Assembly: GCF_005239135.1 (NCBI RefSeq)
Contig: NZ_QKNX01000001.1
Location: 744,001 to 808,000 of the forward strand
Origin: Natronomonas salsuginis
GTDB taxonomy: Archaea; Halobacteriota; Halobacteria; Halobacteriales; Haloarculaceae
DNA length: 64,000 bases
Direction: 5' to 3'
Shown: in pieces, positions 14,587 through 21,651 of the stretch
How positions within the stretch are numbered: the first letter of the stretch is position 1
How the letters are laid out: the number at the start of each line of letters is the position of its first letter
The notes under the pieces: generated by a model
The model's input: only the letters and a program-made list of their open reading frames with translations
What the model was told of the DNA's origin: nothing
The model's database searches: none
Program-made: the position numbers and the translations under genes

Positions 14587-14895
14587 ATGTACCGCGCCCG
14601 AGATCAGGTCGAAAACGAGGAGTGGCTCGCGACCATCGACGACGCGGCCGAGCGACTCGACCTCGGTGGCGAGGCGAAGTCTCGCGCCACGGATCTGTTT
14701 CTCTCGACGGTTCCCGTGGCGGACCGCTCGAAGCGAGCGACCGTGGCGGCCAGTCTCTATGCAGGCGCGCTCATCGCGGGAAACCGCCGCTCACAATCGG
14801 CCGTGGCGGACGCCGTCGGCGTTTCCAGACTCACCGTACAAAACAGGTGGAAGGACCTGCTCGAAGCGGCTGGCCTCGAGCCACCGAAGTGGTGA
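14587..14895 (+). CDS. Single-cyclin-fold TFB-like protein
   Basis: This 102-residue protein corresponds to one cyclin repeat of transcription factor B. It has the ordered helices AERLDLGGEAKSRATDLF, KRATVAASLYAGALIAGN and a C-terminal helix-turn-helix SQSAVADAVGVSRLTVQNRW. It lacks the zinc ribbon, B-reader and second cyclin repeat of a normal TFB, so it cannot recruit RNA polymerase in the standard way. It could bind DNA at a BRE-like element or interfere with TBP-TFB. It has its own strong promoter and precedes aglB by 93 bases. Confidence 0.75.
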   Translation: MYRARDQVENEEWLATIDDAAERLDLGGEAKSRATDLFLSTVPVADRSKRATVAASLYAGALIAGNRRSQSAVADAVGVSRLTVQNRWKDLLEAAGLEPPKW

Positions 14896-14988: not shown

Positions 14989-17838
14989 ATGAGCCAGCGG
15001 TTTGAGGCGATCGAAGAGCGGCTCGACGACTACGAGTCGCAGATCGACACTGTATATCGTCTGTATCACATCCCCGTCCTCGCAGCCCTCATGGCGTTCA
15101 TGCTGTGGATCCGGGTGAGACACTACTCGAATCACGTCGGCTCGGACGGCAGACCGCTCTATCGGGGGAACGATCCCTACTACCACTACCGGTCGACCCG
15201 ATACGTCGTCGAGCACTACCCGTTCACCATGCCGTTCGATCCGTGGACCGGCTTCGACGCCGGGACTCGTGCCGGTCAGTTCGGGACGATATTCGATCAG
15301 GTAGTGGCGACGGCCGCGATGATCGTCGGGCTCGGTTCACCATCCGAGAGCACAATCATCGCAACGACGCTTTTGACCGCACCGGTCATCGCGACGCTGT
15401 GTGCGATCCCGATGTACGTCATCGGCCGTCGGCTCGGTGGCCGGTTCGGCGGCATCATCGCGGTCGTCGTCCTGGCGCTGTCGGCCGGTCAGTTCCTCAC
15501 TCGGAGCGTCGTGGGAACCTACGATCACCACGTCGCCGAGGTGCTTGCGACGCTCGTAGCCCTCGTCTTCGGGATGGTTATGGTGACGGTTGCACAGCGT
15601 GACCGTCCGATATACGAATTCTTCCGCACGCGCGAGTTCGAACCGATCGGTGATTCGCTGAAGTGGGCCGCCGCGTTCGGCGCGTCGCTTGTCGTCGCGG
15701 TGCTGGTCTGGCCGCCCGCCGTGTTCCTGTTCGGTATATTCGCTGTGTTCCTCTTGGTCCACCTCTCGGTCGAGTTCGTTCGCGGCCACAGCCCCGATCA
15801 CGTCGCGATTCCGTCCGCGATCGCGATGGTCGTCTTCGCCGTGCTCGTCTCTCCGTTCGTCGTCTCGATGGGATTAGATGTGACCGACTACTCGCTCCTC
15901 CACCCGCTCTTCGCGCTCGCGGTCGCCGGCGGTGCGGCGTTCATGGCCGGGATCGCAAGGCTGTGGGAGAGTCGAGATCTCCCGAGGATCGCCTACCCTG
16001 TCGGCATTGTGGGTATGGGACTCGTCGGCGTTGCCGTCGTCGCCGTCGTGCTTCCGGACGTGTTCGACTTTTTCGTCAGTCAGTTCCGGCGCGTCGCCGG
16101 ATTGGGGACGACGGACACTGCCGCGACGATAGGGGAAGCACAGTCGCCGTCGAATCCCGTCTCGTTTTTCTACGGAAACTACGGGTTCGCGCTGTACACC
16201 GCGATCGGCGGGTTTCTTTTACTCTCGTACCGCACGCTCGCAGACGAACGCCCCCGGGCGGAACACGTACTTATCACGGTGTTCGCGGCGATCATGCTGC
16301 TCTTTACGCTCACGCAACTCCGGTTCGATTACTACCTGGTTATCGCTGTCGGTGCCGGTAACGCCTACGTCGTCAGCTGGATTTACCAGTTCGTCGATCT
16401 CGACAACGTTCGTGAGGACATCAGAACGGTCAAACCGTATCAAACACTGATCGTCGTCGCGATACTCTTCGTCATCGCTGGCCCGCTCGTCGCGACGGGC
16501 GCGACGGTCACGACGGTCGACAGGGCATCCCAGCCCGGCGAGATGGGCCAGTGGACCGAGAGCCTCGATTGGCTCTCCGAGGAGACACCCGAGGTCGGAT
16601 CGTACGGCAGCGGAGATGATCCGAGACTCGACTTCTACGGCACCTACGAGAATACCGACGACTTCGAGTACGAGGCCGGCGAGTACGGCGTGCTGGCGTG
16701 GTGGGACTACGGCCACTACATAACGACCCGCGGTGAGCGTGTCCCGGTCGCGAACCCCTTCCAGCAACACGCGACCGAGTCGGCCGACTTCCTGCTCGCC
16801 GACGAGGAAGACGAAGCGATTGAGATCCTCGAAGAGGACCAACCCGAGGGTGAGAGCGTCCGGTACGTGATGGTTGACTACCAGCTCGGCTACGCCGGGA
16901 CGCGGAAGTACGGCGCTCCGACGGCGTTCGAATCGCGTCACAACGTGTCGAGTAGCGATGTCGGTATCAGCGTCGGACAGCAGAACCCCCAGACGGGACA
17001 GTTCCAACCGTTGTACGGCGCGCACACCCAGCGCGGTTACGAGAGCATGCGCGTGCGGATGTACCAATTCCACGGCAGCGCACGGGAGCCAGGGACGATC
17101 ACGCTCAACTTTGGCCAGTACTCTGAAGAGGGCGGCGTCGCCACGCTACCGGAGGACGCCACGACCGTCGATGACATCTACGAACAGCACGACAGCGTCG
17201 AGGCGGCCCGCGAAGCCGCCGAGAACGACCCGACGGTCTTCCGCGGCGGCGTCTTGGGTCAGCCGTCCGAACGGGTCGAGGCGCTCGAACACTTCCGATT
17301 AGTCCACGCCGGCGGACCGGTCGCGTCGTCGCCGTTCGACCGTGTCCTCGGCCAACAGCCGGTCAACGGGTACGACGAGTGGGTGAAGACGTTCGAACGT
17401 GTCGACGGGGCGACCGTCGAGGGGACCGGCCCGGCCAACACCGAGGTGCAGGCGTCCGTCGAGATGGAGATCCGCTCGACCGGGCAGACGTTCATTTACA
17501 CCCAGTACGCCGAAACGGACGCCGACGGCAGCTTCGAAATGACCCTCCCGTACTCGACGACCGGCTACGACGAGTACGGCCCTGAGAACGGCCACACCAA
17601 CGTCGACGTTCGAGCCAACAGCAGCTATCAGTTCATCGCGCCCGAGGCACCCGCGATCGGGACCGCGGACGTGACCGAGGCGCAGGTCGTCGGTGACGAC
17701 GACACGCCGGTCACCGTCGAACTCCAGACGCCTCAGATCCAGCCGAGCGGCGGCAACAATGAGGGCAACTCGACCGACGGTGACGGCGGATCCGGCGGCG
17801 ATACCCGATCGAGCCGGACCGTTCGGACAGCTGAATGA
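14989..17838 (+). CDS. aglB: Dolichyl-phosphooligosaccharide-protein glycosyltransferase AglB
   Basis: This 949-residue protein is the archaeal oligosaccharyltransferase (STT3/AglB) that moves the lipid-linked glycan to Asn in N-x-S/T sequons of surface proteins such as the S-layer. The N-terminal half holds about 13 membrane helices. The first external loop carries GNDPYYHYR (residues 60-68) with an acidic catalytic residue, and the C-terminal domain carries the signature WWDYG at 571-575. After residue 700 comes a soluble beta-rich domain and a Gly/Ser/Asn-rich tail. Its stop overlaps the DUF368 start (ATGA), so the two are translationally coupled. Confidence 0.93.
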   Translation: MSQRFEAIEERLDDYESQIDTVYRLYHIPVLAALMAFMLWIRVRHYSNHVGSDGRPLYRGNDPYYHYRSTRYVVEHYPFTMPFDPWTGFDAGTRAGQFGTIFDQVVATAAMIVGLGSPSESTIIATTLLTAPVIATLCAIPMYVIGRRLGGRFGGIIAVVVLALSAGQFLTRSVVGTYDHHVAEVLATLVALVFGMVMVTVAQRDRPIYEFFRTREFEPIGDSLKWAAAFGASLVVAVLVWPPAVFLFGIFAVFLLVHLSVEFVRGHSPDHVAIPSAIAMVVFAVLVSPFVVSMGLDVTDYSLLHPLFALAVAGGAAFMAGIARLWESRDLPRIAYPVGIVGMGLVGVAVVAVVLPDVFDFFVSQFRRVAGLGTTDTAATIGEAQSPSNPVSFFYGNYGFALYTAIGGFLLLSYRTLADERPRAEHVLITVFAAIMLLFTLTQLRFDYYLVIAVGAGNAYVVSWIYQFVDLDNVREDIRTVKPYQTLIVVAILFVIAGPLVATGATVTTVDRASQPGEMGQWTESLDWLSEETPEVGSYGSGDDPRLDFYGTYENTDDFEYEAGEYGVLAWWDYGHYITTRGERVPVANPFQQHATESADFLLADEEDEAIEILEEDQPEGESVRYVMVDYQLGYAGTRKYGAPTAFESRHNVSSSDVGISVGQQNPQTGQFQPLYGAHTQRGYESMRVRMYQFHGSAREPGTITLNFGQYSEEGGVATLPEDATTVDDIYEQHDSVEAAREAAENDPTVFRGGVLGQPSERVEALEHFRLVHAGGPVASSPFDRVLGQQPVNGYDEWVKTFERVDGATVEGTGPANTEVQASVEMEIRSTGQTFIYTQYAETDADGSFEMTLPYSTTGYDEYGPENGHTNVDVRANSSYQFIAPEAPAIGTADVTEAQVVGDDDTPVTVELQTPQIQPSGGNNEGNSTDGDGGSGGDTRSSRTVRTAE

Positions 17839-18779
17839 GCCGTCCAACGGGACTCCGCGCGTGGCTCGCGATCTATCTCAAGGGCGTCTGCATGGGCTCT
17901 GCAGACACGGTCCCGGGCGTCTCCGGCGGCACGATCGCTGTCATCTTGGGTATCTACGAGCGGCTGATCGCGGCGCTGACGGCGCTCGACCCCGCCATCG
18001 TGCGTCATCTCCCGACGCTCCACACGACCGAGGGCCGGTCGGCGCTCGCCGCTGATCTTCGTCGTGCTGACGTTCCGTTTCTCCTCGCACTCGGCGCGGG
18101 TGCGCTCTCCGCCGCCGCGACCGTCGCGACCGTGATGCACGTCGCGGTGACGCGGTATCCCGCCCCGACGTACGCGTTCTTTTTCGGACTCATCGGCGCG
18201 TCAGCGATCGTTCTCTACCGGTACGTCGAGATCGGCACGCCGCGACGGATCGCCGTGGCCGCGATCGGGTTTCTCGTCGCGTTCTCGATCACCGATCCAT
18301 CGCTCGCTGGGACGAGTACGACGACACTGCCGGTTCTGTTCGCTGCGGGTGCGATCGCGATCTCGGCGATGATCCTCCCCGGGATCTCCGGAGCGTTCCT
18401 ACTCCTCCTCATGGGCCAATACGAGTACGTGAGTGGGATTCCGAGACGAGTGTTCGCAGGGCTTCTCGACGCGCTCGGGGGAAACGTCGATCCGCTCGTG
18501 GACTCGCTCGTCCCGTTCGTCGTCTTCGTCTCCGGTGCGCTTGTCGGACTGTTCTCGGTGGCTTACGCCGTCCGCGCCGCGCTGAACAGGTATCGCGAGG
18601 ACACGTTCGTCTTTCTCGTGAGCCTCATGGTCGGCGCGCTTCGACTCCCGATCCGAGAGGTAACGGACAACGTTGCGGCCGTCTCATCGACGACAGTCTT
18701 CGTCGTCGTCGTCCCGGCCGTCCTCGGCGTGGTCGCCGTCTTATTGCTCGACCGCTACACCGTCGATCTCGAATACTGA
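17835..18779 (+). CDS. DUF368 membrane protein (polyprenyl-phosphate translocase candidate)
   Basis: This 314-residue polytopic protein is a clear DUF368 member. The signature GSADTVPGVSGGTIAVILG occurs at about residues 21-39 and a related LPGISGAFLLLLMGQYEY in the second half, as in two inverted repeats. In bacteria DUF368 proteins (PopT) recycle undecaprenyl phosphate across the membrane. Here the gene overlaps aglB by four bases, so the natural inference is return of the dolichol-phosphate carrier released by AglB. That function is an inference from family and context, not shown by sequence alone. Confidence 0.85.
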   Translation: MSRPTGLRAWLAIYLKGVCMGSADTVPGVSGGTIAVILGIYERLIAALTALDPAIVRHLPTLHTTEGRSALAADLRRADVPFLLALGAGALSAAATVATVMHVAVTRYPAPTYAFFFGLIGASAIVLYRYVEIGTPRRIAVAAIGFLVAFSITDPSLAGTSTTTLPVLFAAGAIAISAMILPGISGAFLLLLMGQYEYVSGIPRRVFAGLLDALGGNVDPLVDSLVPFVVFVSGALVGLFSVAYAVRAALNRYREDTFVFLVSLMVGALRLPIREVTDNVAAVSSTTVFVVVVPAVLGVVAVLLLDRYTVDLEY

Positions 18780-18848: not shown

Positions 18849-19544
18849 ATGTACGAAGCCGTCCACGCCTATCCAGACGGACGGGCGACGGTCGCCCGCC
18901 TCGTGAAGACCGCAGCGAGGTACGGGTACGACGGTATCGTGGTTCGAAACCACGGGAACGCACAGACAACCTACGACGCCGACCGCATCGCCGAAGCGTA
19001 CGGAATCGAGATCGTTCCCGGAATCGAGATACGGACCAACGACCCCGGACAGGCGAGCGGATTGATCGGAAACTATCGCTCGAAGCGGACTGTCGTTTGC
19101 GTCCACGGTGGCGCGTTGAACCGATTCGCCGTCGAGCAACCGCAGGTCGACGTACTTGCCCACCCGATGGACGGCGGCGACGTGAACCACGTCCTGGCGA
19201 AGAGCGCGGCCGAGAACGGCGTTCACGTGGAGTTCAATCTCTCCCGAGTGCTCCGAGCCGACGGCGGTCCTCGGGTCGAGGCGATCGGTGATCTCCGCAA
19301 GCTTCGCGAGCTCGTCGAGCAGTACGGCGCGCCCTACGTCGTGTCCGCGGATGCGCGCTCGCATCTCGAACTTCGCGGGCCGCGCGAACTGATCGCGCTC
19401 GGGGAGACGATCGGGTTCGACCAGGACGCGATGGTCACCGGACTGCGAGCATGGGGCGAGATCGCATCGCGAAATCGGGAGCGACAATCGGACGCGTTCG
19501 TCGAACCCGGGGTTCGAACGGTCCAGAGAGAGGACGACAGGTAG
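18849..19544 (+). CDS. rnp3: RNase P protein subunit p30 (Rnp3)
   Basis: This 231-residue protein matches the archaeal RNase P subunit homologous to human Rpp30, a TIM-barrel-like (PHP-related) protein that assists the catalytic RNA in tRNA 5' maturation. Visible segments are YGYDGIVVRNHG (residues 25-36), EIVPGIEIR (59-67), VDVLAHPM (99-106), HVEFNLS (123-129) and VVSADARSHLELRGPREL (161-178). It starts a cluster with the Pop5 subunit, proteasome alpha and SBDS, an arrangement conserved in many archaea. Confidence 0.92.
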   Translation: MYEAVHAYPDGRATVARLVKTAARYGYDGIVVRNHGNAQTTYDADRIAEAYGIEIVPGIEIRTNDPGQASGLIGNYRSKRTVVCVHGGALNRFAVEQPQVDVLAHPMDGGDVNHVLAKSAAENGVHVEFNLSRVLRADGGPRVEAIGDLRKLRELVEQYGAPYVVSADARSHLELRGPRELIALGETIGFDQDAMVTGLRAWGEIASRNRERQSDAFVEPGVRTVQREDDR

Positions 19545-19611
19545 ATCAGCGGCAGTCGGTCGCCCCTCGTCGACCGCCGAAGCTTTGTTTATCGTCCTCG
19601 AATGCCATCCA

Positions 19612-20097
19612 GTGAAACACCTCCCGAAGCACGTGCGTCCGCGGTGGCGGTATCTCGCGATCGAGCTCGAATCGCACCCCGACACGGAGATCGACCGTCG
19701 TTCGTTCCAGCGCACGCTGTGGTTCGCGACGCAGAACCTCATCGGTGACGTCGGGAGTGCAGCGCTCGATACGAACCTGTTCGGGTTTCGATTCGAGGAG
19801 GGTGACGGGACCGCGGTCATCCGAGTTCGTCGTGGCGAAGTCGACCGACTTCGGGCCGTATTGGCGAGCATCGACGAGATTGACGGACAGCCGATCGGTC
19901 TGTTCGTCCGCGGCGTTAGCGGGACGGTTCGAGCCTGTGAAGAAAAGTATATACGGCGTCCGCAGATAAGATCTAAAGAGAGAACCGTCGCGTTCGCGGA
20001 CGCCTCCCGGCCCGCCGTCATCCGGAACGACCGGATCGACGTGGAGCTTCCGGACGGCCCCGTGGGTGCGACAGCACTCGATATCCGCGACAACTAA
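19612..20097 (+). CDS. rnp2: RNase P protein subunit Pop5/Rpp14 (Rnp2)
   Basis: This 161-residue protein is the Pop5 partner of p30 in archaeal RNase P. Its opening MKHLPKHVRPRWRYLAIELE is the usual start of the family; the codon is GTG 19612, and the nine codons upstream in frame from TTG 19585 are not conserved. An RRM-like fold is predicted, with FQRTLWFATQNLIGDVG and a conserved VRGVSGTVRACEEKYI near the end. It follows rnp3 by 67 bases and ends three bases before psmA, so it is probably in the same transcription unit. Confidence 0.9.
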   Translation: MKHLPKHVRPRWRYLAIELESHPDTEIDRRSFQRTLWFATQNLIGDVGSAALDTNLFGFRFEEGDGTAVIRVRRGEVDRLRAVLASIDEIDGQPIGLFVRGVSGTVRACEEKYIRRPQIRSKERTVAFADASRPAVIRNDRIDVELPDGPVGATALDIRDN

Positions 20098-20099
20098 CA

Positions 20100-20864
20100 A
20101 TGCAGGGACAATCGCAGCAGCAGGCGTACGATCGGGGGATCACCATCTTCTCCCCGGACGGCCGTCTGTACCAAGTCGAGTACGCGCGAGAGGCGGTCAA
20201 ACGAGGCACGGCGTCCATCGGCATCCGGACCAAGGACGGTGTCGTGTTGGTCGTGGACAAACGCATCCGCTCGCCGCTCATGGAGCGGACCAGCGTCGAG
20301 AAGATCCACAAGGCCGACAACCATATCGGTATCGCGAGCGCCGGCCACGTCGCAGACGCCCGCCAACTGATCGACTTCGCGCGCCGTCAGGCACAGGTCA
20401 ATCAACTTCGCTACGACGAGCCGATCGGCGTCGAAACGCTGACAAAGGCCGTCACCGACCACATCCAACAGTACACGCAGGTCGGCGGCGCACGGCCGTT
20501 CGGCGTCGCGCTGATCATCGGCGGCATCGAGGACGGCGAACCACGGCTCTACGAGACGGACCCGTCCGGAACGCCGTATGAGTGGCAGGCGCTGGCCGTC
20601 GGTGCCGACCGCGGTGACATCGAAGATTACCTCGAGGAACACTACAGCGAAGAGATCGATCTCGACGCAGGGGTCGGCCTCGCACTGGAGGCGCTCGCAT
20701 CCGTCAACGACGGTGAGCTCACCCCCGAAGGGATCGGACTCGCGACGATCTCCGTCGGCGAAGAGGGCTTCCGCCAGCGAACCGACGAGGAGATCGAGGC
20801 GTATCTCTCGGAGCACGGACTCCTCGCCGCTGAAGCGGACGAGGAGACGGACACCGACGAATAG
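20100..20864 (+). CDS. psmA: Proteasome subunit alpha
   Basis: This 254-residue protein is the alpha ring subunit of the archaeal 20S proteasome, which gates entry to the beta-ring proteolytic chamber. The N-terminal gate segment [20 protein letters not shown] (residues 6-25) with the YDR motif is intact, followed by [17 protein letters not shown]. The C-terminus after residue 245 is an acidic tail; the family's HbYX partner sits in the ATPase, not here. The ATG is two bases after the rnp2 stop. Confidence 0.95.
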
Positions 20865-20895
20865 CGACACGGCTGCGAGACGTTTTGGGAACATC

Positions 20896-20904
20896 TTTTA
20901 TTTT
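20896..20904 (+). promoter_or_regulatory. Putative TATA box for the SBDS gene
   Basis: TTTTATTTT lies about 27 bases before ATG 20926. The same T-rich run could also help terminate the psmA transcript. Confidence 0.4.
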
Positions 20905-20925
20905 CCATCCCGCCTACCAGTACGT

Positions 20926-21651
20926 ATGATATCTCTTGACGAGGCGGTGACGGCCCGGCTCGAATCCCACGGCCAACGGTTCGAAGTGCTCGTCGATCCG
21001 GACGCCGCGCTCGCGATCAAACGCGGGGAGTTCGACGGCGAACTGGAGGACGTGATCGCGGCCGAGGACGTCTTCGAGGACGCGTCGACGGGGGACCGAC
21101 CGCCGGAGGACTCGCTCGTAGAGGTCTTCGATACGACCGATCCGCTCGAGATCATCCCTGAGGTCATCACCCGCGGTGAGATACAGATCACCGCCGAGCA
21201 GCGCCGTGAGATGCAGGAGCAAAAACACAGACAGCTCGTCAACACGATCTCGCGAAACGCGGTCAATCCGCAGATGGACGACGCGCCGCATCCCCCCGAG
21301 CGGATCGAGCGCGCCCTCGAGGAGGCGGGATTCAAGATCGATCCAATGGAGCCGGTCGAAAACCAAGTCGACGACGCGCTCGACGCGCTTCGTCCGGTCC
21401 TCCCCATCCGGTTCGACGAGATCGTGATGGCCGTCCAACTGCCGGCGGAGTACGCGGGTAGTGCGCAGGCACAGGTCCGACAGTTCGGCGAACTCGAACG
21501 TGAGGAGTGGCAGTCCGACGGGTCGTGGGTCGGCGTCGTCCGATTTCCCGCCGGGCTACAAAACGAGTTCTACGACCTCGTCAACGAGCACACGAGCGGC
21601 GAGGCCGAAACCCGGATCGTCAAGGACGAAGACGAGATCGGAACGCGATAA
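20926..21651 (+). CDS. Ribosome maturation protein SBDS homolog
   Basis: This 241-residue protein is the archaeal homolog of SBDS/Sdo1, which in eukaryotes releases eIF6 from the 60S subunit. The three-domain layout is visible: an N-terminal RNA-binding domain ([20 protein letters not shown] near residues 33-52), a helical middle ([40 protein letters not shown]) and a ferredoxin-like C-terminus. ATG 20926 has a promoter at the right distance; the longer in-frame extension overlaps psmA and is rejected. Neighbours fit a ribosome and RNA quality theme. Confidence 0.92.

Follow-up and report, generated by a model that had tools for sequence, protein, structure and literature searches.

Every cycle of N-glycosylation must return the spent lipid carrier across the membrane, and a locus in the haloarchaeon Natronomonas salsuginis raises the question of whether a gene for this step is located next to that of the oligosaccharyltransferase. 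The window analysed here is a stretch of 64,000 nucleotides (GCF_005239135.1, NZ_QKNX01000001.1, positions 744,001 to 808,000); all positions below refer to it, and all features described are on its forward strand. The oligosaccharyltransferase gene aglB (14989 to 17838, 949 amino acids) is followed by a gene of the DUF368 family (PF04018; 17835 to 18779, 314 amino acids) for a candidate dolichyl phosphate translocase. Both start with ATG. As described in a first-pass annotation made from the sequence, the start codon of the DUF368 gene lies inside the aglB stop codon, the four bases ATGA (17835 to 17838) being common to both reading frames, and sequence and translations confirmed this exactly. 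A four-base overlap by itself is common among prokaryotes. We nevertheless consider it likely that the two genes constitute a unit, which combines the last step of N-glycosylation with a candidate return of the lipid carrier by DUF368. The genome, a draft, comprises 12 contigs totalling 2.9 Mb and has a single match each to PF04018 and PF02516.

The expectation that the adjacency of aglB and DUF368 is conserved across haloarchaea was borne out. Within the class, PF04018 is present in 289 and PF02516 is matched in 283 of 292 genomes. Gene order was compared in 120 DUF368 loci, each fetched as a stretch of roughly 16 kb, from 114 genomes, 79 genera, and eight families. This set was picked by hand to spread over genera, with unlinked kinds included deliberately and families f5, f10, and f11 outside, and the linkage fractions hold for the chosen loci, not for the class. 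In 74 of the 120 loci, which represent 74 of the 114 genomes, 54 of the 79 genera, and all eight families, AglB immediately precedes DUF368 on the same strand, and the pairing thus exceeds chance. In six further loci, AglB is found 1.4 to 2.4 kb upstream, and five of these gaps contain a gene of the AglM cluster, the one tested member of which is AglM. The remaining 40 loci have no AglB in the stretch; four of them are additional copies in genomes whose other copy is linked. In class-wide searches, AglB was located just upstream in 66 of the 73 genomes with both genes among the matches listed, a side figure only, since it is drawn from best-scoring matches and low-scoring unlinked copies are missing. 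A scan of named records covered 80 loci, 17 haloarchaeal and 61 bacterial. No AglB match was obtained in the 61 bacterial DUF368 loci, and 11 of the 17 haloarchaeal loci are directly linked, among them those of Halostagnicola sp. A56, Haloglomus irregulare, Haladaptatus salinisoli, Halorhabdus amylolytica, Halorubrum coriense, and Halolamina salifodinae. Unlinked within the stretch are Halonotius roseus (this copy), Halobellus rufus, Natronorubrum halalkaliphilum, Natrarchaeobius chitinivorans, and two metagenome-assembled genomes.

Among the 74 directly linked loci, the DUF368 gene overlaps the AglB stop codon in 17 cases and follows after 0 to 30 bases in 35, after 31 to 100 in 17, and after more than 100 in five; for these gaps the DUF368 start nearest to the AglB stop was used, a choice biased towards short gaps. 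A median of 95 bases separates the AglB stop from the first DUF368 signature, and the distance is 150 or less in 60 of the 74 loci. A 1066-amino-acid open frame spanning the DUF368 region in one genome (G133) was considered as a natural fusion of AglB and DUF368 and rejected, as it overlaps AglB in another frame in L211; only this candidate was inspected closely.

The pair outlasts its surroundings. Downstream of DUF368 in linked loci, the most frequent gene is shared by eight of 50 genera, and the most frequent one preceding AglB, a GT2 gene on the opposite strand, by 29 of 53; by its one tested member the latter is of the AglG type (524.4 bits, cut-off 440). The gene for RNase P p30, which comes next in the window, is found near DUF368 in five of the 120 loci, every one in the window's genus. 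Four loci in which DUF368 is absent from the conserved-gene table (L082, L129, L147, L160) were left out of the neighbour counts; L129 is linked.

What could DUF368 contribute to glycosylation? According to the available text of Sit et al. 2022 (PMC9876793), bacterial DUF368 proteins serve the return of undecaprenyl phosphate (C55-P), mutants display more C55-P in the outer leaflet, and a vca0040 mutant is at least partly rescued by HVO_RS12060, the DUF368 member of Haloferax volcanii. AglB does not occur in the main text of that paper. In the accessible parts of two other publications (PMC5131992, PMC7749143), aglB and aglG of H. volcanii are HVO_RS12050 and HVO_RS12045, which places the rescuing gene two locus tags from aglB. 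HVO_RS12055 in between would be aglM, as suggested by Haloferax-like loci. The bacterial complementation result is now tied to an archaeal glycosylation locus, and the conserved pair names a candidate for carrier return in tractable organisms. As in the H. volcanii agl cluster, AglB, AglG-type, and AglM-type genes are involved, but in the window genome the AglG-type gene (503 bits, cut-off 440) is on another contig and DUF368 overlaps aglB directly. Part of the pathway based on dolichyl phosphate (DolP) is therefore present, but not beside aglB.

In the proposed mechanism, AglB would transfer the glycan from its DolP carrier at the outer membrane face to an asparagine of a surface protein and leave empty DolP in the outer leaflet. 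DUF368, a relative of bacterial polyprenyl-phosphate translocases, would return DolP to the inner leaflet, for glycosyltransferases to reload. The archaeal carriers described in the available part of PMC4476749 are mostly dolichol monophosphate, and therefore AglB should free the lipid class handled by the DUF368 family; for Halobacterium salinarum, both mono- and pyrophosphate carriers are proposed there. The release of dolichol phosphate or pyrophosphate assumed by the first-pass annotation can be narrowed by these descriptions. With a monophosphate carrier, no phosphatase would be needed between AglB and DUF368, and the gene overlap could link expression of the two. That DolP is the substrate in vivo, that it is moved inwards, that glycosylation depends on it, and that translation is coupled is what we infer. 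The direct coupling of transferase and translocase postulated earlier holds for gene order and overlap and otherwise goes beyond the evidence. A membrane complex in which AglB passes freed DolP straight to DUF368, making glycosylation and carrier return one machine, appears rather doubtful. No report of an AglB-DUF368 pairing, and no paper mentioning both AglB and DUF368, was found in the literature searched, most subscription papers being outside the search. The parts of archaeal papers that were available describe loading, the outward step, and transfer, and no protein assigned to carrier return was met in them.

The position beside the transferase might also suit a protein that moves glycan-charged DolP outwards, a flippase feeding AglB, and AglR and Agl15, the named flippases, serve the mannose and low-salt branches, as far as the accessible literature describes them. 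However, more empty C55-P at the surface of bacterial DUF368 mutants (available text of PMC9876793) fits inward return, and genes for polysaccharide flippases (cluster c7; PF13440/PF01943 in the one member tested) are present near the genes of 20 fetched loci. Outward transport is accordingly regarded as very improbable.

Judged by family score and conserved active-site segments, the AglB of the window is complete. It scores 82.5 bits with PF02516 (cut-off 24.5), 63 with PF22627, and 61.4 with PF18079, and its 841.9 bits with NCBIfam TIGR04154 (cut-off 450) place it among archaeal STT3 proteins. TIGR04154 is the AglB subfamily named for its association with the archaeosortase A system. D62, D179-H180, T380, E383, and W571-G575 are invariant in 17 aligned AglB sequences. 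The segment TIGE (residues 380 to 383, positions 16126 to 16137), with T380 and E383 invariant, is the TIXE-type segment of the oligosaccharyltransferase family; WWDYG (residues 571 to 575, 16699 to 16713), invariant in all five residues, is its acceptor-site motif. The conserved active-site segments compared are GND, DH, TIXE, and WWDYG.

The assignment of the downstream gene to DUF368 proved right. The protein matches PF04018 (VCA0040-like) with 209.5 bits against a cut-off of 26 over profile positions 1 to 235 of 246. Two signatures of the form PG-x-SG are present, one per half of the protein (residues 27 to 31 and 182 to 186), and their P, G, S, and G are invariant in 34 aligned sequences. 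In the first, DTVPGVSGGT (residues 24 to 33, 17904 to 17933), D24, P27, G28, V29, S30, G31, and T33 are invariant and G32 nearly so; in the second, MILPGISG (residues 179 to 186, 18369 to 18392), L181, P182, G183, S185, and G186. A pattern related to the second signature is also found in bacterial relatives. VCA0040 and SAOUHSC_00846, which concurrent work called PopT (PMC9876793), fall in the same Pfam family along almost the entire domain and contain the same two signature patterns, and in their system the H. volcanii member complements partly, according to the available text. Unlike them, the DUF368 protein of the window has an archaeal host with dolichol instead of undecaprenol and no peptidoglycan, is paired with an oligosaccharyltransferase, and stays below the NCBIfam equivalog cut-offs. 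An AlphaFold2 model based on 34 haloarchaeal sequences is helical (mean predicted local distance difference test score 91.4) and has a helix break at each signature, which suggests that they may be paired re-entrant elements of a repeat. Among solved structures, no match was obtained by phmmer at E≤1 or by Foldseek at E≤0.001, the best VIA-align Z was 6.5, and no known fold stood out for the model with Foldseek or VIA-align. A fold kinship to BacA, the undecaprenyl pyrophosphate phosphatase (5oon), was considered and rejected, since neither Foldseek (E 1.0) nor VIA-align (Z 4.5) gave a significant match.

A number of observations weigh against reading the pair as a unit of glycan transfer and carrier return. 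Among the sampled genomes, 34 of 114 are unlinked, two of them with two unlinked copies each. One genome (G021) contains AglB without PF04018, another (G225) DUF368 without detectable AglB, and a third (G117) DUF368 with weak AglB matches only. Because of G021 and G225, AglB and DUF368 are partners by habit and not by strict need. A survey of the phylum detected PF04018 in 76 of 246 genomes, 42 haloarchaea and 34 others; of the latter, 19 were fetched, and AglB was found in none of their stretches with a haloarchaeal profile at E 1e-5, which distant AglBs may escape. Methanocaldococcus jannaschii, Sulfolobus acidocaldarius, and Methanosarcina acetivorans have PF02516 but no PF04018. With 74.1 and 174.8 bits, the DUF368 protein of the window is below the cut-off of 400 for each of the NCBIfam PopT equivalogs NF052563 and NF052564, and is therefore not filed as a PopT equivalog but only as working like one. 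Dolichol also differs from undecaprenol. Finally, DedA proteins, rival carrier flippases, are encoded in all 16 genomes tested, and the window genome has three matches over the cut-off.

The unlinked copies suggest that DUF368 might recycle DolP for the whole envelope, that is for exopolysaccharide, DolP-linked single sugars, and glycosylation, and that its adjacency to aglB reflects an ancient operon in which it does AglB no particular service. Such a general role would agree with the 34 genomes served by unlinked copies, with the retention of DUF368 in G225, with another GT2 gene adjoining some unlinked copies in seven genera, and with the separate location in other archaea, but not with a pair that outlasts its surroundings across 54 genera, and we consider it rather unlikely. 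DedA, on the other hand, could perform the main DolP return, with DUF368 being important only under alkaline or high-salt stress. DedA proteins (VTT domain) are C55-P flippases with the same proposed task in the same genomes; they belong to a different family, and their genes in the window genome are away from the pair. Their presence in every genome tested, a division of the task by pH between bacterial DUF368 and DedA (available text of PMC9876793), and G021, which has AglB and DedA but not DUF368, all fit this explanation. The maintenance of PF04018 in 289 of 292 genomes, and beside aglB, argues against it, and it is judged quite improbable. A replacement of lost DUF368 by DedA beside aglB was also rejected: Pfam detected no DedA in ten AglB-adjacent open reading frames (ORFs) of unlinked genomes, the only ones on which this linkage was tested. 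They comprise GT2 (two), DUF7350 (two), LUD, aminotransferase, ABC transporter, and three without family. A unit of AglB and DUF368 for transfer and carrier return is preferred. The earlier claim that carrier recycling is built into N-glycosylation gains from the wide adjacency and from the complementation by HVO_RS12060 (available text of PMC9876793); it is supported in part, as the link is not obligatory, given the unlinked and single-gene genomes and the DedA alternative.

The history of the link was examined on a DUF368 tree. This was a quick tree (LG+G4, SH-aLRT support only) of 137 rows, 121 haloarchaeal and 16 outgroup, with four long outgroup branches and 45 of 134 inner forks open. 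The 121 haloarchaeal proteins form one clade versus the outgroup, and linked rows (81, including the six near ones and the window) are found at its base and throughout. Of the 40 unlinked rows, 33 form one clade (support 99) nested in a 60-row clade with family f4. Six changes of linkage suffice on this tree, a number as low in none of 500 shuffles. Since the outgroups are unlinked, a gain on the haloarchaeal stem would be the simplest reading.

No DUF368 match was obtained in 20 AglB stretches (L292 to L311) from genomes chosen as unlinked, and several of them retain flanking genes seen in linked relatives. In genus g6, G229 has the order AglB-DUF368-c66, while in G057, G085, and G109 other ORFs, including a GT2 gene in two cases, separate AglB from c66. 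In G029, DUF368 is accompanied by the downstream and AglB by the upstream neighbour of linked relatives; here the pair seems to have been split. Most unlinked cases would be explained if a second DUF368 copy had been acquired and the linked one then lost, and linked and clade-B copies occur together in three genomes (G005, G090, G180). Seven unlinked copies (L140, L143, L145, L146, L148, L150, L151), probably a Natrialbaceae-like group, face conserved GT2 and methyltransferase genes, perhaps another polyprenyl-phosphate pathway. Of the nine genomes without a PF02516 match, direct comparison identified AglB in G068, G042, and G231, and G282 and G285 match an AglB profile, while G117 gave weak matches only and G225, G186, and G205 none. 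G186 and G205, both drafts of 160 to 180 contigs, also lack PF04018. At the G225 locus (L316), DUF368 and its downstream neighbours are retained, and no AglB is present there or was detected elsewhere in the genome.

A Thermoplasmata contig (L264) was examined as an independent case of linkage and rejected as weak: it has an STT3 gene upstream of DUF368 in the same orientation, with genes for AMMECR1 and an amidohydrolase intervening. This STT3 (L264:1482-8169, 1303 amino acids), two genes 5' of DUF368, carries C-terminal CarboxypepD_reg-like repeats.

In the window, DUF368 is followed on the same strand by the RNase P p30 gene (18849 to 19544; PF01876, 142.2 bits) and then by proteasome subunit and SBDS genes. 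The block with the proteasome and SBDS genes (18849 to 21651) is downstream of aglB-DUF368 here and in some relatives and upstream in genus g5. L084 to L086 and L102 contain the same two blocks in the other order. Just 5' of aglB, a 102-amino-acid ORF (14587 to 14895) contains one TFIIB repeat (PF00382, 32.4 bits) and may specify a small or truncated relative of transcription factor B.

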